Shown: piece after piece, positions 15,242 to 22,452 of the stretch
How positions within the stretch are numbered: the first letter of the stretch is position 1
How the letters are laid out: each line of letters opens with the position of its first letter
NCBI RefSeq assembly: GCF_014636495.1
Contig: NZ_BMEM01000001.1
Span: forward strand, 1,380,471 to 1,444,470
Source: Ornithinimicrobium tianjinense
GTDB lineage: Bacteria > Actinomycetota > Actinomycetes > Actinomycetales > Dermatophilaceae
Direction of reading: 5' to 3'
DNA length: 64,000 nucleotides
The notes under the pieces: model-generated
What the model was told of the DNA's origin: nothing
Seen by the model: only the letters and a program-made list of their open reading frames with translations
Databases searched by the model: none
Program-made: the position numbers and the translations under genes

Positions 15242-15556
15242 TCAGCCGAGCTGTGAGGTGATCCATGCGATGAAGCCCACGCAGACGCCCGCAGACACGA
15301 TGCTCCCGATTGCCAGGCCCATGACGAAGCCGGCGCCCGCTCGGCGCCAGCGAGGGATCGCGAGCAGGACGACCCCGACCACCGCCGGAACGGCGACCGT
15401 GACCGCGAACAGCCACCACGGTCCGACGCTGGACAGGGCGACGTTCAGGACGTAGGTCAGGGCCAGGCCCGCGAGCGTTCCGGCGGTGATCCCCCCGGCG
15501 ACCGCCAGGCCGGTGACGGGGTCGGGACTGTAGCCGTCGGGGTCGAGCCCGCTCAT
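15242..15556 (-). CDS. small membrane protein, paralogue of its upstream neighbour
   Basis: 104 residues with about three membrane segments (VAGGITAGTLAGLALTYVL, WWLFAVTVAVPAVVGVVLLA and VMGLAIGSIVSAGVCVGFIAW). The block IPRWRRAGAGFVMGLAIGSIV is nearly the same in the preceding gene, so the two are tandem paralogues. The start overlaps the preceding stop (ATGA). It is last in the operon lgt-like, radical SAM, three small membrane proteins. Function unknown; context suggests a membrane or lipid role. Confidence 0.75.
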   Translation of the reverse strand: MSGLDPDGYSPDPVTGLAVAGGITAGTLAGLALTYVLNVALSSVGPWWLFAVTVAVPAVVGVVLLAIPRWRRAGAGFVMGLAIGSIVSAGVCVGFIAWITSQLG

Positions 15557-16011
15557 CCCAGTCCCGCTCCGTGTCCCTGTCCCTGTCCCTGGGTCGGGAC
15601 AAGGACCGGTCTTTCGCCCGGTCCCTGTCCCGGGCTCGGGGGATTGGCCAGGTACGCCCCGCAGATGCCAGCGAAGACGATGCTCCCGATGGCGAGCCCG
15701 AGGACCATCCCGGCTCCGGCTCGCCGCCAGCGGGGCACCAGCAGGATGCCCAGGGCGACGGCGGCGACGGCGAAGATCGCCCAGATGGCGAGGTCTTCCC
15801 GTCCGGTGCCCATCAGAGCCACGGTCAGGATGAACCCCAGAGCAAACTGCAGGCCGACCCCAGCGACCACGCCAAGGACCACGCCGGCGCCCGGCAGGGG
15901 CTGCTGGTCCGGCCGCCCGCCCCCCTCGGACCGCCGCGGCCCTCCGCGTCGTCCGGGTCCGGTACCTGCCCGGCGTCGGGGGCGCTCATGAGAGCCAGCC
16001 CCTGACGGCAT
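15553..16011 (-). CDS. small membrane protein with apparent N-terminal frameshift
   Basis: The open frame (up to 152 residues) holds about three membrane segments and the block VPRWRRAGAGMVLGLAIGSIV shared with the next gene. Its first 40 residues in this frame are improbably Arg-rich. The ATG at 15989, in another frame, overlaps the upstream stop as ATGA like every other junction of this operon and gives a natural acidic start, MSAPDAGQVPDPDDAEGRGG. One extra base in the C6 run at 15920-15925 would join the two into about 145 residues. I infer a 1-base deletion or a sequencing error. The Gln/Gly tail is coded by TGTCCC repeats. Confidence 0.65.
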   Translation of the reverse strand: MPSGAGSHERPRRRAGTGPGRRGGPRRSEGGGRPDQQPLPGAGVVLGVVAGVGLQFALGFILTVALMGTGREDLAIWAIFAVAAVALGILLVPRWRRAGAGMVLGLAIGSIVFAGICGAYLANPPSPGQGPGERPVLVPTQGQGQGHGAGLG

Positions 16012-16300
16012 ACCCGATCCCCACCGCGGCGGCGACGCCCAGCAGGGCGAGGTAGCTCAGGACGAGCCTGGTGTCGCGCAGCAGGCAGCGGCTGCGGGTG
16101 AGGCCGGCCCGACGGGCCTTCCAGTAGCCGACGAAGCCCAGCCCGGCGAACCACAGCAGAGCGAACGGGCCGAGCGCCCAGCCGAGCAGCGCGACCGTGG
16201 CGAAGATGCACAGCCGCAGCGGGTCGAAGGGGGCCGTCGGCGGAGCGTCATCCAGGACGGGAGATCCCGGTATGCCGTGGGTCGGGTCCAGCGTGGTCAT
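15986..16300 (-). CDS. small membrane protein in lgt/radical SAM operon
   Basis: 104 residues: a 30-residue Pro/Asp-rich N-terminus, then hydrophobic segments (LCIFATVALLGWALGPFALLWFAG and LVLSYLALLGVAAAVGIGYAV) separated by a basic loop KARRAGLTRSRCLLRDTR. It has a strong AGGAGGT ribosome site 4 bases before the ATG and also overlaps the radical SAM stop (ATGA). I do not recognise the family. Its place directly after a lipid-type radical SAM gene suggests a membrane partner or a substrate-access role. Confidence 0.72.
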   Translation of the reverse strand: MTTLDPTHGIPGSPVLDDAPPTAPFDPLRLCIFATVALLGWALGPFALLWFAGLGFVGYWKARRAGLTRSRCLLRDTRLVLSYLALLGVAAAVGIGYAVRGWLS

Positions 16301-17949
16301 GGCACCTCCTGCGAAGTGGTGGGTGTGAGCTGTAGCTCGGCTCGGCCCTGAGAACCGGAGGTAGTGGAGATGCGGGTCCGCGCCAGCGGGTTCCAGGCCT
16401 GCACGGCGCAGAAGGGCGCGCACTGGTGGGCGCCCTTGGCGCCGAGGGAGCCACCCGCCTCGCCAGGGTTGACGGTGGCGACGTGCACGCAGCACTGCGT
16501 CAGCCGTTCCTCGATCATCGTGTGGATGTCCATGAACGGCTTGACCGTCACCCGGACCACCCGCTCCGCCAGCATCGCACGCAGCCGCGCGTGCCCGCCG
16601 GGGAGGGTCGACGTGGCCAGCGTGGTGAGGGTGCCGATCCCGAGGTCGCAGCCGGTGCAGATGTCCTTCCACAGGCCGGCGATCGAGGGGTGGGACAGCG
16701 ACGACTGCTCCGAGAGCAGGTCGAGGAGGGAGTCCTTGACGGCCGTGCGCAGGGTGCTGGGCAGTGCCTGGTCGGCGATGCGGTTGGCGAGGACGTCGGG
16801 GGAGAGGTCGAGGAACTCCTTGAGCCGCTCGCTGCCGATGAGGGAGACGAGTGAGCGCCATACGCCCGAGTCGTCCCGCAGCAGGTAACCCACGGAGCAG
16901 CAGTGCGGGTGGGAGCACGGCAGGGCGGTGAGGTCGCGCCAGCTGACCTCGCCGTCGGTCTGCGGGCCGAGGCGGGCCAGCACGCCGGTGTGGGTGAGCC
17001 GCTCCATGGGGTCCAGACCCGCCGACCGGCCCGAGGCGAAGACCGGCTGGATGGTCACGCCCCCCACGAAGGGGGTGCGCAGCGCGAGGCGCACGACGTC
17101 ACCGATCTCGTGGTCGTTGACGCCGAGAGCCGTGGTCATGGTCAGGGTGGTGAAGATGCCGGCCTCGCTCAACCGGCGGAGGGCGAGGTGCTTCTGGCGG
17201 CGCAGGTCACCGCCGCGGTGGTGGACCGAGGCCTCCCGGGTCAGCCCGTCGAACTGGAGGTAGACCTCCACCCGCTGCCTGTGCTCGGCGAGGAGGGCGA
17301 GAAGGGCGTCGTCCTGGGCGATCCGCAGACCGTTGGAGTTGACGAGGATGCGGACGACGGGCCGAGTCACGAGGGCCGTGAGCAGCTCCTCGAACTGGGG
17401 GTGCAGGGTCGGCTCCCCGCCGGAGAGCATGAGCACGTCGAGACGACCGCGCTCGCGGGCGAGCTTGGCGTCGACGCTGGCGAGGACCTCCTCCATCGGC
17501 GCGACCGCCCCGAGCGCCGGCGCGGAGGAGGCGAAGCAGGTGGGGCAGCGCAGGTTGCAGTGGTCGGTGATGTCCTCGAGGAGGATGCACGTGTGCTGCG
17601 TCTGCATCTGCGGCAGACCGTCGAGGTAAGCCTGGGGCACCGGGCGGAAGTTGCCGCCGAGGTCGGCGACGTGCTCCTTGGTCGGCGCGGTCCACTGCTC
17701 CAGGTAGCGCAGGATCTCGGCGTCCTCGTCGTAGAGCGTGCGCTGGAAGCCGTGGTCGGGACAGCCTCGCTCGAGGTAGACCTTCCCGGCGCGGACGGCC
17801 AGCCACCCGGAGAGGCGGCGGACGTCGGCCAGGTCGCGGTCCGGCTGCTCGTGGTGACACCGGGGGCAGAAGGCGTTGACGTACCGGTGCACCCGGAAGT
17901 CGCGCAACGGCATACCTGGTCCCACCTCGGGTCGTGCGGAACGGCTCAT
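16297..17949 (-). CDS. radical SAM protein resembling tetraether lipid synthase (Tes/COG1964)
   Basis: 550 residues. An N-terminal rubredoxin-like site (Cys28-x2-Cys31, Cys63-P-D-H-G) is followed by the radical SAM cluster motif Cys131-x3-Cys135-x2-Cys138 (CNLRCPTC) and GGEP at 177-180, which contacts S-adenosylmethionine. Further cysteines at 345, 350-351, 431, 434, 486-487, 510 and 514 suggest auxiliary Fe-S clusters. This layout fits the family of archaeal Tes, which joins lipid tails by C-C bonds; a relative was first described as a radical SAM methylase. Function here is inferred. ATGA overlaps tie it to the lgt-like gene before it and the membrane protein after it. Confidence 0.8.
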   Translation of the reverse strand: MSRSARPEVGPGMPLRDFRVHRYVNAFCPRCHHEQPDRDLADVRRLSGWLAVRAGKVYLERGCPDHGFQRTLYDEDAEILRYLEQWTAPTKEHVADLGGNFRPVPQAYLDGLPQMQTQHTCILLEDITDHCNLRCPTCFASSAPALGAVAPMEEVLASVDAKLARERGRLDVLMLSGGEPTLHPQFEELLTALVTRPVVRILVNSNGLRIAQDDALLALLAEHRQRVEVYLQFDGLTREASVHHRGGDLRRQKHLALRRLSEAGIFTTLTMTTALGVNDHEIGDVVRLALRTPFVGGVTIQPVFASGRSAGLDPMERLTHTGVLARLGPQTDGEVSWRDLTALPCSHPHCCSVGYLLRDDSGVWRSLVSLIGSERLKEFLDLSPDVLANRIADQALPSTLRTAVKDSLLDLLSEQSSLSHPSIAGLWKDICTGCDLGIGTLTTLATSTLPGGHARLRAMLAERVVRVTVKPFMDIHTMIEERLTQCCVHVATVNPGEAGGSLGAKGAHQCAPFCAVQAWNPLARTRISTTSGSQGRAELQLTPTTSQEVP

Positions 17950-18761
17950 GCGGTGATCTCCTGGGAAGGTGCGGTCCGGGGGCCGGGCAGCGCAGGGGAG
18001 AGCCGTCCGTGCCGCCACAGCCACCAGACGCGGGCCAGGACGAGGGGGACGGTGAGGGCGAGGAAGAGCTGAGGCCGCGTCATACCGAGCCAGACGACCT
18101 CGTTGCCGCGGACGAACTCGACGAGGAACCGGAAGACGCCATAGGCGGCGATGTAGAGGACGAAGGCCTCGGCCGGGCGGTGCAGGCGGTCGCGCAGCCA
18201 CCACCACAGGAGGGCGAACGCGACGGCGTGGAAGACGCTCTCGTAGACCAGCGACAGGTGGAGCGGAACCCCGGCCACGCCACCGAGACGCACAGCGGTG
18301 TCCGTGTCAAGGACCGGGCCGACGCCCAGGCTGCTCGGCGTGCCGGGCAGCTCGGTCAGGGCGCAGCCGATCCGGCCGACCGCCATCGCCGCCGCCACGG
18401 CGGGCGCGAACAGGTGCCCGGTGCGGGGGCGGTAGCCGGTGAGGCGCTTGGCGATGTGCACCCCCAGCCACGCACCGACCAGGCCGCCGAGGATGCTCCG
18501 GTTGCCGTAGACCCACTGCTCCGCCAGGGAGGCGTTGTCACGGAGGTCGACGTGCTGCAGCCAGGTGCCGAGGCGCATGAAGAGCGCGCCTCCGACGAGA
18601 GCACCGGTGACGACGTAGAGCAGTCTCTCGTCGCGCAGCTGGTGGTGGCGGACCTGCAGCCAGACCACGACGGCACCGACGATGACGCCGAGTCCGACGA
18701 AGAGCTCGTGCAGCGGGACTGGCAGGCTGACGCCGAGCAGGTCGCCCAGCGTCGGGTACAT
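17946..18761 (-). CDS. Lgt-like (prolipoprotein diacylglyceryl transferase family) membrane protein
   Basis: 271 residues and about seven membrane helices. Lgt landmarks: HELF near the start, RSILGGLVGAWLG (88-100), GRIGCALTE (129-137, where Lgt has GRxGN), LVYES (171-175) and RFLVEFVRGNE (211-221). It should act on phospholipid or diacylglycerol at the membrane, but the Asn-to-Cys change and the operon with a radical SAM gene suggest a specialised paralogue. Whether a housekeeping lgt exists elsewhere cannot be seen. It is first in the operon, with a -10 TACCTT 6 bases before the ATG (leaderless). Confidence 0.82.
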   Translation of the reverse strand: MYPTLGDLLGVSLPVPLHELFVGLGVIVGAVVVWLQVRHHQLRDERLLYVVTGALVGGALFMRLGTWLQHVDLRDNASLAEQWVYGNRSILGGLVGAWLGVHIAKRLTGYRPRTGHLFAPAVAAAMAVGRIGCALTELPGTPSSLGVGPVLDTDTAVRLGGVAGVPLHLSLVYESVFHAVAFALLWWWLRDRLHRPAEAFVLYIAAYGVFRFLVEFVRGNEVVWLGMTRPQLFLALTVPLVLARVWWLWRHGRLSPALPGPRTAPSQEITA

Positions 18762-18767
18762 GGGCCC

Positions 18768-18773
18768 AAGGTA
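18768..18773 (-). promoter_or_regulatory. -10 element of leaderless lgt-like/radical SAM operon promoter
   Basis: TACCTT on the minus strand, 6 bases before the ATG of the Lgt-like gene. It would drive all five genes of the operon. Confidence 0.5.
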
Positions 18774-19994: not shown

Positions 19995-22199
19995 TCAGAA
20001 GGGCGGTGGATCGCCCGGGTCCCGGGGATCTTTCGTCGGCGCCAAGTCGTCACCGAGAAGCTGTTCCGGAGTCGGCTGGTGAGGCGGCGGACCGTTGCGC
20101 ACCTGGCCTCCTGAGGTGGTGTGCCGCAACCGGATCGGGGCAGTCCTCAGCCAGGCGTGCGGGTCCTCCGGAACCGAGCTGTCCCACGGGCCGTCGTCGT
20201 CCCCGCGCAGCCGGTGTCCGTCTGGCCGGTGAGTCAGCGCCGCGTAGACCAGCTGGCCCGCGCGATGTCCTGCTTCGTCCCGGTCCAGGCCGTCGCACCA
20301 GGAATGATCCTTCGGCACGTGGGCCCGGGAGTACTGCCGATAGTCGTGCGGACCCGTGCTGTAGACCCGGCCGAAGAAGGACGTCCAGCTCGCCCACCCC
20401 GTCTCGGCCAGGACGCAGCGGAGAAGGTCGTAGGTCTTGAGCAGGTGGTCACGTCGGCAGTCGGTGCTGAGGTTGTCAGCTGACGTCGAGCCCTCGGGCC
20501 ACGGCACGACGTGGTCGAGATCGCTGAAGAACGATGGGTTCGTGCATCCGGGCGCCCTGCACATCACGTCTCGCGCCCGGACGAAGGAGCGGAGTGCCTC
20601 GTCAGGCCGGTAGGCCTTGGTGTCCCGCTCCAGCAACGAGCCGCTGAGCGGATGGGTGACGAGCCTGCGCAGCATCGATGACGGACGGCGGAGCAGCGCG
20701 CGGAGATGTTCAGAGGTCACGAAGGCTGACTGCGGCGCGAGCACCTCGCCGAGGGGAGCCGCCCCTGCACTCTCTTCGATGTCCGGAGGTGACTCGTGGT
20801 GGGTCGTGCAGGTCTCGTGGGTGGTCGCGCGGACCCCTTGCGCGGTGCCGGTGTGCGCGGCCGACGTGTGACCAGAGATGCCCGAGGAGCGACCGAGGAG
20901 AAAGTCCAGAGTCTCCGGCCCGACGAGTGCGTCCAGAGGGGTGATGACCTGGAGCTCGACGGAAGGATGGGCGTCGACCACGTCCGCAAGGCGCTCCAGG
21001 TCATCCGGCCGTAGAAGGTCCTCGCCAGCGCTGGGAGGAAGCCCCGGGTCGGCGATGGGATGCAGGCCGCCATGCAGCAGGAGGGCGGCGCTGATGTCGA
21101 AGCGAAGGTGGTCCAGCCGCCGCTCGTCACCCCGTCGCTTGGCCTCACGCGCCGCGAGCTCGAGGCGTTGGGAGATGCCGACGACGGCGACCGTCTCTCC
21201 GCGCAAGGTGACGGAGGAGCTGCCGTCGGCACCGACGTTCACCGTGACCTGGCGCTCGGCGCGTGCTCGTCGGTGAGGGGCGTCCTTGCCGCTCGCCCGC
21301 TGCCGGGCCTGCACTTCGCGTCGCAGCACGCGGCGAAACACGTTGGTCGCCCACGGTGACCGGAGGACCTCGCGTGTCGCCTGGTGATCGGTGGCGCCGG
21401 ATGGATTCTCCTGATCAGCCGCTCCGTCGTCGTCTGACTCGTCTCCCTCGGGCGACCCCTTGTCGTCTGACTCGTCCCCCTCGGGCGACCCCTTGTCGTC
21501 TGACTCGTCTCCCTCGGGCGACCCGTCGCCCCGCGAGGCTTCGCTCGCCGGGTCCTCCCGGCTCAGTCGTTCGGGCACGACCCGCTCCGGGTCGCCGCCG
21601 AACAGCGCCGCCGCAAGGTCTGCGGCGTCCTCGTGCTCAAGATCGCCCGCGTCGTCCCAGTAGCGGCGCACCTCGTCCCACCGTGCGCCGCGCTCGTGCA
21701 TCCCGTCCACGACGGTCGTCCGCACCCGCTCCGGACCGCAGGCCACCGCCACCATGTCGTAGGACTCCTGGACGCCCAGGCCCATGAGCCGCTGCAGCTC
21801 GGAGGCCACGGCCATCTTCACCTTCCGACGCCACGCGCGCCGCTGGCCCTTGCCGAGCTCGTCGGGCGTCGTGACTCCCTGCTCCCCGAGCAGCCGCTCA
21901 CCGGCCCGTCGGGCGAGGGCGCGCGTGACCTCGACGGTGGTCGCCTCGACCTGACCCTGCAGGGCGTAGCCGCAGGCTAGAGTCTCCAGGAGCTCGTCGT
22001 CGGACCGTCGGTCAAGACGGTCGTCCTGCTGCGCCCGCTGCACGCTCACCACGGAGATGACCCTCTCCACCACCTGGCCGGACAGGCCGAGGATGTCCAG
22101 GACCGACTCGATGACACCCAGGCCCGTGGCATCCTCGAGCCACGTGGGTGCGGACGCAGGCCTGTCTCCTTGCCTGGCGATCGTGCGAGTCGTGCTCAT
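19995..22199 (-). CDS. DUF222/HNH endonuclease domain protein (13E12-repeat family)
   Basis: 734 residues. The long N-terminal DUF222 region is mostly helical. The C-terminal HNH motif is Cys-rich: CRAPGCTNPSFFSDLDHVVPW, then DNLSTDCRRDHLLKT. This is a family often found in many copies in actinobacterial genomes, with suspected mobility and unclear function. A Ser/Asp/Glu-rich 11-residue unit is repeated three times mid-protein. The start ATG has AGGAGG 6 bases upstream. It is convergent with the HIT gene and occupies the place where pgsA/pimA genes are expected from mycobacterial gene order. Confidence 0.85.
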   Translation of the reverse strand: MSTTRTIARQGDRPASAPTWLEDATGLGVIESVLDILGLSGQVVERVISVVSVQRAQQDDRLDRRSDDELLETLACGYALQGQVEATTVEVTRALARRAGERLLGEQGVTTPDELGKGQRRAWRRKVKMAVASELQRLMGLGVQESYDMVAVACGPERVRTTVVDGMHERGARWDEVRRYWDDAGDLEHEDAADLAAALFGGDPERVVPERLSREDPASEASRGDGSPEGDESDDKGSPEGDESDDKGSPEGDESDDDGAADQENPSGATDHQATREVLRSPWATNVFRRVLRREVQARQRASGKDAPHRRARAERQVTVNVGADGSSSVTLRGETVAVVGISQRLELAAREAKRRGDERRLDHLRFDISAALLLHGGLHPIADPGLPPSAGEDLLRPDDLERLADVVDAHPSVELQVITPLDALVGPETLDFLLGRSSGISGHTSAAHTGTAQGVRATTHETCTTHHESPPDIEESAGAAPLGEVLAPQSAFVTSEHLRALLRRPSSMLRRLVTHPLSGSLLERDTKAYRPDEALRSFVRARDVMCRAPGCTNPSFFSDLDHVVPWPEGSTSADNLSTDCRRDHLLKTYDLLRCVLAETGWASWTSFFGRVYSTGPHDYRQYSRAHVPKDHSWCDGLDRDEAGHRAGQLVYAALTHRPDGHRLRGDDDGPWDSSVPEDPHAWLRTAPIRLRHTTSGGQVRNGPPPHQPTPEQLLGDDLAPTKDPRDPGDPPPF
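21430..21528. repeat. 33-bp tandem repeat, three copies, inside DUF222/HNH gene
   Basis: Units at 21430-21462, 21463-21495 and 21496-21528 are nearly identical and keep the reading frame. Each encodes GSPEGDESDDK or a close variant, which makes an acidic disordered linker. Copy number is likely to vary by slippage. Confidence 0.9.
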
Positions 22200-22308
22200 C
22201 GTCCCCTCCTGTGTCCTTGACCACCGTGTCCCTCGGTGACCAACGTGTCTCTCGGTCCCGATCACCGCCCGACCCCTCCCGAGCTGACATGACCACCATA
22301 GAACACGC

Positions 22309-22323
22309 GTACGACATACCCAG
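22309..22323. repeat. direct repeat copy 1, GTACGACATACCCAG
   Basis: Identical to bases 22453-22467, 144 bases apart. The copies flank the predicted pdxS -10, so they are candidate regulator sites; each also contains the genome-wide CATAC motif. Confidence 0.6.
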
Positions 22324-22452
22324 GGAACGCCGCGGCGCGTCGACCACATGTTCGGCTCGGGATTCGGCACCCGGTCGGGGGCACCCAGCCGCAGGTCGTA
22401 GGATCAGGTATCCCACCGTCGGGGCGCCATGCCGGCGCCGCGCCGCGCGCGG

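Follow-up and report, generated by a model that had tools for sequence, protein, structure and literature searches.

Among described systems, the closest to the locus reported here are the tetraether lipid synthase Tes (GDGT-MAS; MJ0619, structures 7TOL and 7TOM) and the lipoprotein diacylglyceryl transferase Lgt of Escherichia coli (structure 5AZB). According to the sections available of PMC9433317, Tes binds a pair of phospholipids and acts on alkyl chains, and the activity of bacterial Tes homologues is stated as unconfirmed in excerpts of PMC8941075 (2022) and PMC11868695 (2025). For E. coli Lgt, passages of PMC4728403 report R143 and R239 as essential, the mutants Y26A/F/Q and H103A/N/Q/R/Y as inactive, and the HGGL motif with H103 as the proposed site of the lipobox peptide. 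The present study concerns a minus-strand gene cassette of Ornithinimicrobium tianjinense, located in a stretch of 64,000 nucleotides (contig NZ_BMEM01000001.1, positions 1,380,471 to 1,444,470; hereafter the window), which unites a Tes-related radical S-adenosylmethionine (SAM) enzyme (P0002), an Lgt-like integral membrane protein (P0001) and the small membrane proteins P0003, P0004 and P0006. Results revealed that this cassette is a real conserved unit of scattered actinobacteria. It is apparently undescribed, as no description of it was found in the titles and abstract starts of the open-licence PubMed Central (PMC) matches listed. With a rough probability of 0.36, it encodes an accessory system for membrane modification that centres on an acceptor cysteine, in which the Lgt-like enzyme would lipidate a C-terminal Gly-x-Cys (GxC) site and the radical SAM enzyme would remodel the lipid.

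Co-occurrence of the genes in other genomes had been set beforehand as the refutation test of the initial annotation, and matching distributions were found at two scales. Among 186 genomes of the window's family (Dermatophilaceae), the Lgt-like gene was present in 34 (profile threshold E <= 1e-40), and precisely these 34 also had the radical SAM orthologue, with E < 1e-200 in 33 of them (the G159 copy being split in two pieces) and as a contig-edge fragment with E 4e-22 in the 34th, G182. The best radical SAM match in the remaining family genomes was no better than E 3e-11, the level of other radical SAM proteins. P0003 was detected in 28 of the 186 genomes, all within the 34, and was not matched at E <= 1e-8 in the five genomes of genus g27 nor in G182. 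Similarly, the profile of the P0004/P0006 family gave E 2e-7 or better in 27 genomes, again all within the 34, after exclusion of five further genomes whose weak matches (E 8e-6 to 7e-5) were not near a cassette. In the phylum sample of 396 genomes, the Lgt-like gene (E < 1e-60) and the radical SAM orthologue (E < 1e-120) occurred in an identical set of 10; seven genomes with distant radical SAM relatives only (E 1e-53 to 1e-68) were scored as cassette-negative, and eight Lgts of family f25 (E 1e-31 to 1e-33) were left out of the cassette members.

The linkage of the genes was equally conserved. The locus counts given here refer to the best 80 of the 368 relatives that were confirmed when named genomes were scanned. 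The Lgt-like gene was present in 78 of the 80 loci and a P0003 homologue in 74; contig ends truncate the two loci lacking the Lgt-like gene (L117 and L127), and in L056, L065, L088 and L117 the contig ends inside or close behind the cassette. Two gene orders were found, each on one strand, namely Lgt-like/radical SAM/(P0003) in 32 loci and radical SAM/P0003/Lgt-like in 46, and across the 67 complete loci the pairwise identities of the Lgt-like and radical SAM proteins were correlated (Spearman 0.83). Hosts include Ornithinimicrobium, Knoellia, Janibacter, Microbacterium, Agromyces, Leucobacter, Nocardioides, Tersicoccus, Psychromicrobium and Dactylosporangium. Chance clustering is thus ruled out by the matching presence and absence together with the conserved linkage. 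A wider conserved neighbourhood was also considered and rejected, since the big open reading frame (ORF) clusters found in at least 8 of the 80 loci were cassette genes or overlapping frames; clusters that by eye resemble pyrH, frr, cdsA and rlmN were found in 10-11 of the 80 loci each, and the representatives viewed were from Nocardioidaceae.

The radical SAM enzyme P0002 (positions 16297..17949, minus strand, 550 aa), carrying PF04055 and an HMPTM zinc ribbon, is related to Tes, as had been proposed from the window alone: it matched the Tes structure 7TOL over most of its length with E 1e-32 alone and 3e-38 as a profile. The residues were compared in an alignment of Tes with 41 members of the family and nine distant relatives, of which eight are actinobacterial and one is haloarchaeal. 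The alignments A4 and A5 each held the window protein plus 36 relatives, from 72 and 71 usable translations, respectively. The rubredoxin-type site C-x2-C...C-x2-H (C28/C31/C63/H66, corresponding to C9/C12/C33/H36 of Tes), the CX3CX2C radical SAM cluster motif (C131/C135/C138), the SAM-binding residues R210, Q268 and R275 of Tes and the equivalents of Tes C455/C456/C470 were all kept in 41/41. The rubredoxin-like site, cluster motif and further cysteines of the initial annotation were borne out, with 16 cysteines invariant among the 41 members, although C351 is not universal, since 4 of the 15 sequences in a separate alignment, which includes the Janibacter members absent from A4, have Ala there. 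The family formed one clade with a long stem in a FastTree phylogeny (support 0.90), the deeper order being unreliable because the tree was rooted on a single Tes.

Four of the further cysteines, C121, C345, C431 and C434, do not fit the Tes layout that had been suggested: they are common to all nine distant relatives and have no opposite cysteine in Tes. The best NCBIfam score of P0002 was that to TrsS (NF045646, 186.3 bits; cut-off 490 not reached), and C121, C345, C350, C431 and C434 are common to P0002 and the nine distant sequences. Unlike the P0002 family, these relatives mostly keep the N-terminal cluster (8/9) and have neither C351 nor C510, the latter being confined to the family. In lipoyl synthase, an auxiliary cluster serves as sulfur donor, and an analogous sulfur chemistry may be envisaged in which an auxiliary cluster of P0002 would pass sulfur on to an alkyl chain or another substrate, while the Lgt-like and GxC proteins would handle the sulfur-bearing lipid. 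The extra conserved cysteines C345, C431, C434 and C510 are in line with such a role, and in the Tes reaction a carbon-sulfur bond to a cluster sulfide is formed on the way (stated in the part of PMC9433317 available); an assignment of the cluster ligands would take a structure, however, and this explanation is quite improbable.

Regarding the first gene, P0001 (17946..18761, minus strand, 271 aa) was found to be related to the phospholipid-to-lipoprotein transferases, as the initial annotation had stated, reaching 84 bits against PF01790 (gathering cut-off 24.9). It scored 53.8 bits against the lgt equivalog TIGR00544 and thus did not reach the cut-off of 118.9. Alignment of 48 distinct Lgt-like sequences to E. 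coli Lgt revealed that R130, E137, G140, E174, Y207, R211, E215 and R218 of P0001, which correspond in order to R143, E151, G154, E202, Y235, R239, E243 and R246 of E. coli Lgt, are kept in 48/48. In contrast, the position of H103 in the HGGL motif is Leu in 47/48 and Ile in 1/48, W25 and Y26 fall in an alignment gap, and N146 and N149 are replaced by Cys and Thr, respectively, in 48/48. This pattern is read as a putative donor site that has been kept and an acceptor side that has probably changed. Moreover, apart from P0001 the window genome encodes a single LGT-family protein, a canonical Lgt scoring 281 bits, so that P0001 coexists with an ordinary Lgt, and its partners are GxC proteins. 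Membership of P0001 among the plain lipoprotein Lgts was rejected in view of the sub-cut-off score and the residue changes, and Lgt serves as an analogy.

The three small membrane proteins noted initially are better described as the conserved protein P0003 and two members of a single 3-helix family. P0003 (15986..16300, minus strand, 104 aa), a 2-helix protein by hydropathy with homologues in other loci, has C31 and C72 invariant in 12/12 members, and the 12 members scanned matched no known NCBIfam family. P0004 (15553..16011, minus strand; C117 of a 152-aa ORF) and P0006 (15242..15556, minus strand, 104 aa; C92) belong to one family according to a hidden Markov model (HMM) seeded with both and iterated on the 80 loci, and are about 26% identical between loci; among 34 members, three single weak Pfam matches were the only ones obtained. 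The HMM recovered 93 copies in 73 of the 80 loci, all on the cassette strand and no more than 1.5 kb from the cassette, 85 of the 93 lying within 600 bases. In the alignment of 99 domains, including the window and mycobacterial copies, a Cys was aligned in 88 of 96 non-gap rows, preceded in 86 of these 88 by Gly at -2. The distance from the last Arg/Lys to this Cys was 17-25 residues (median 21), and the tail behind it 5-35 residues (middle half 7-11). Every one of 75 groups (73 loci, the window, and the mycobacterial plasmids pooled) held at least one Cys-bearing copy, with 1 to 4 copies per group. The cysteine is kept in a drifting background, as the median pairwise identity over the 67 complete loci was 26.5% for the P0004/P0006 family, compared with 79.7% for the radical SAM enzyme and 66.7% for both P0003 and the Lgt-like proteins.

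The GxC ending was also searched for as a pattern, namely an ORF end with a basic residue, a hydrophobic stretch, GxC and a short tail. Of the 1920 ORFs in the vicinity of the cassette, from 1.2 kb before it to 1.6 kb behind it, 82 had this ending, and they came from 71 of the 80 loci. These matches are partly by construction because the motif was defined after the family had been viewed, whereas its absence elsewhere (0/2768 other plus-strand and 0/4834 minus-strand ORFs) is not. In addition, two loci without the P0004/P0006 family (L055 and L118) encode, directly behind P0003, a Pro-rich protein with one helix by eye and the same ending (LAGVC-FGGLSLLGS and LAGIC-VAVISSSSG, respectively), which the HMM did not match even at E 10; the L055 protein came from a loose pattern with many chance matches, and that of L118 was read by eye. 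C-terminal sorting signals such as MYXO-CTERM and JDVT-CTERM likewise place a short signal with a conserved Cys beside a transmembrane helix on varied scaffolds. The GxC signal differs from them in its reverse order (basic, helix, GxC, tail) and in its partner, which is an Lgt paralogue.

Small, fast-evolving proteins with a conserved end and 1 to 4 copies per group could also be substrates of a peptide modification, in which the radical SAM enzyme would act on the GxC proteins or P0003, as in pathways for ribosomally synthesized and post-translationally modified peptides, and the Lgt-like enzyme would lipidate or export the product. The radical SAM domain of P0002 does match the peptide maturase SkfB (E 7e-9); the full-length relatives, however, are Tes and TrsS, neither SPASM nor RRE was among the Pfam matches of P0002, and the cysteine apparently lies on the outer side, away from the cytosolic enzyme. 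Such a peptide modification is accordingly considered unlikely.

The preferred reading, an accessory membrane-modification system built around the GxC cysteine, rests on the arrangement of these parts. The topology of the small proteins, derived from hydropathy and the positive-inside rule (a basic loop followed by about 20 hydrophobic residues and the Cys), places the GxC cysteine near the outer membrane face, where Lgt works, and the arrangement appears to mimic a lipoprotein signal peptide, but at the protein's end. The cysteine is a candidate acceptor since it is kept amid sequence drift, occurs on two scaffolds and is encoded beside the paralogue of a cysteine-lipidating enzyme. As donor we infer phosphatidylglycerol, from which the Lgt-like enzyme would take a diacylglyceryl group, as Lgt does, and which it would pass on to the GxC cysteine. 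Before this transfer, the cytosolic radical SAM enzyme, perhaps recruited by P0003, would abstract a hydrogen from an alkyl chain of the lipid and thereby remodel it, so that the product would be a small membrane protein with an unusual lipid. A lipid is the most likely substrate of this enzyme because Tes itself, with two phospholipids bound, acts on alkyl chains, as far as the accessible text of PMC9433317 states. In its most specific form, the proposal would be a second bacterial protein lipidation, in which a radical-SAM-remodelled diacylglyceryl group is placed by an Lgt paralogue on the GxC signal of varied small proteins, the whole being a mobile cassette of actinobacteria; this form is possible and at the same time rather doubtful.

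Several observations weigh against the acceptor-cysteine reading, on the side of the radical SAM enzyme as well as on those of the Lgt-like and GxC proteins. The ligands of the N-terminal auxiliary [4Fe-4S] cluster of Tes (C73/C77/C80 plus His) were found in 0/41 members of the P0002 family, and Met439, Tyr459 and S271 of Tes are replaced by Lys (41/41), Val (40/41; Ala in 1/41) and Phe (41/41), respectively, all of which speaks against a Tes-like coupling. Together with 150.9 bits against the Tes model NF045702 (cut-off 450 not reached), the lost cluster and the changes at Met439 and Tyr459 rule out plain Tes identity and leave the tetraether lipid synthase layout claimed initially incomplete; P0002 is, as judged from its residues, Tes-related and not Tes, with other partners (Lgt-like and GxC proteins) and extra cysteines (C121, C345, C431, C434 and C510, plus C351 in most members). 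According to the portion available of PMC9433317, 1000 archaeal Tes homologues all have Met439 and Tyr459, while M439A, Y459F and Y459L are active in vitro; the residue losses therefore separate the family from Tes without settling the chemistry. Moreover, the substrate need not be a lipid: near the loci of eight distant relatives, some on short contigs, no match to the Lgt-like protein or P0003 was found, and two annotated distant relatives (L191 and L193; 29-31% identical) stand directly before a methyltransferase gene. Genes for CcdA and a protein disulfide oxidoreductase (L191) and for peroxiredoxins (L193) occur nearby, possibly marking a related system with another partner.

These differences also bear on a bulk-lipid pathway, in which P0002 would couple or branch phospholipid acyl chains like Tes, the Lgt-like enzyme would handle phosphatidylglycerol, be it substrate or product, and the small proteins would serve as scaffolds. 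Tes is the best solved relative, and its rubredoxin site, radical SAM site and C455/C456/C470 equivalents are kept; furthermore, bacterial Tes homologues have been proposed for the synthesis of branched glycerol dialkyl glycerol tetraethers (in a section of PMC8941075), and Actinobacteria are named among their possible makers on genomic grounds (in the abstract of PMC11868695). Apart from the lost cluster and the changed Met439 and Tyr459, such a pathway leaves the strongly conserved GxC cysteine unexplained. The host genera are mostly aerobic, and to our knowledge no membrane-spanning lipid is known from them, a point of little weight to which the open-licence PMC matches listed, which included none, add as little. 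A bulk-lipid pathway is thus judged somewhat unlikely, and tail-to-tail coupling or methylation, the reactions named initially, are not specifically favoured.

For the Lgt-like enzyme, the f25 Lgts make the loss of H103 a weaker argument than it looks. Five of them (L203-L207) have Tyr at the place of H103 and a GCCYG-type motif, a sixth has Gln at that place (by eye), all six have Cys at the place of N146 (by eye), and in four of the five f25 genomes searched no other LGT-family protein was present. Being the sole LGT-family protein in these four, the f25 Lgts presumably work without His103, so that its loss is no proof of a new acceptor, and the His that is essential in E. coli Lgt apparently need not be present in every Lgt. 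In one f25 genome (G278; L202, 4929-5777), the f25 Lgt gene is broken by an in-frame TGA in the assembly. That some presumably working Lgts lack H103 would also suit a cassette of ordinary parts, that is, a second lipoprotein Lgt beside an unrelated radical SAM enzyme, as would the RefSeq names on mycobacterial plasmids ("prolipoprotein diacylglyceryl transferase family protein" and "radical SAM protein"), where the cassette genes are annotated singly and the small proteins as hypothetical. The perfect match in presence and absence, the conserved linkage, the score below the lgt cut-off and the canonical Lgt in the same genome make this very improbable. On the side of the GxC proteins, besides the partly built-in enrichment near the cassette, no GxC protein was found at L058, where the contig is uncut; the signal differs from the classical lipobox in that residue -1 is often Pro or Val; and the cysteine could instead serve packing, metal or disulfide chemistry.

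In the window, the cassette genes lie on the minus strand in the order Lgt-like, radical SAM, P0003, gene 4 and P0006, between a thrS-like and a HIT-family gene (both named from reading the translations). The initial annotation had described five genes chained by ATGA overlaps, and three such overlaps of four bases are in frame (17949/17946, 16300/16297 and 15556/15553). The fourth, with its ATG at 15989 over the P0003 stop, is out of frame with the membrane-protein ORF and opens instead the P0005 frame (15825..15989, minus strand, 54 aa), which begins MSAPDAGQVPDPDDAEG and whose first part is the likely N-terminus of gene 4. There, G+C at the third codon position is 0.91 in the P0005 frame versus 0.63 in the P0004 frame, and after a six-C run at 15920-15925 the codon-position G+C favours the P0004 frame. 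This switch of codon bias near the run indicates that gene 4 is probably broken in frame by a sequencing error, a mutation or a slip site. A single leaderless promoter before the Lgt-like gene, as also suggested initially, is probable by comparison with orthologues only: the -10-like hexamer TACCTT (18768..18773, minus strand) lies 6 bases before the first ATG, the same-genus orthologues L033-L037 have TAGGTT or TAAGTT 6 or 7 bases upstream of ATG, and L038, from another genus, has TAGCGT 6 bases upstream of GTG.

Comparison with related genomes revealed that the cassette is accessory. Directly upstream of it lies P0007 (18852-19298, minus strand), of the F420H2-dependent quinone reductase/DDN family (PF04075, 113 bits), which is outside the cassette since it was also found in all five cassette-free same-genus genomes searched. 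In three of these five (G108, G109 and G117; loci L197, L196 and L198), thrS, P0007 and HIT stand together as an empty site, about 0.6 kb separating thrS from P0007; on the 3.4-kb loci of the others, G111 shows thrS and P0007 only and G106 HIT and P0007 only. G115 carries the cassette at the same site as in the window, while in G107 it is on another contig and thrS is still beside P0007. Furthermore, on plasmids of Mycobacterium avium and M. branderi (L189 and L190) the Lgt-like and radical SAM genes occur together with two GxC proteins, with P0003 unmatched among the 5 and 6 coding sequences tested, and a Nonomuraea record listed as plasmid (11.85 Mb) gave matches to all four families. A role in anti-phage defence was discarded, as PADLOC returned only weak viperin matches, via the radical SAM domain. 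In G182, edge fragments of the Lgt-like and radical SAM genes on contigs C145 and C255 contain in-frame TGA codons, possibly a decaying copy. The host genome is actinobacterial and 3.3 Mb in size, and G+C is about 70-75% over most of the window, with a few lower 2-kb stretches (minimum 65.5%). A 791-aa ORF at 19995-22370 (minus strand), which we take to resemble an HNH endonuclease of the DUF222 kind, contains the short tandem repeat SPEGDESDDKG in its translation.

In summary, a link of the cassette to lipid or lipoprotein chemistry is plausible, and the conserved C-terminal GxC of the P0004/P0006 family is perhaps the key to the system. In genome after genome, one branch of the Tes enzyme class accompanies a membrane lipid transferase and a defined candidate acceptor cysteine. 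The role of bacterial Tes relatives thereby becomes directly testable, many of the hosts being named strains. If the acceptor hypothesis is true, the lipobox would be joined by another lipidation signal, and small proteins that currently count as hypothetical would become recognisable as lipid-modified.

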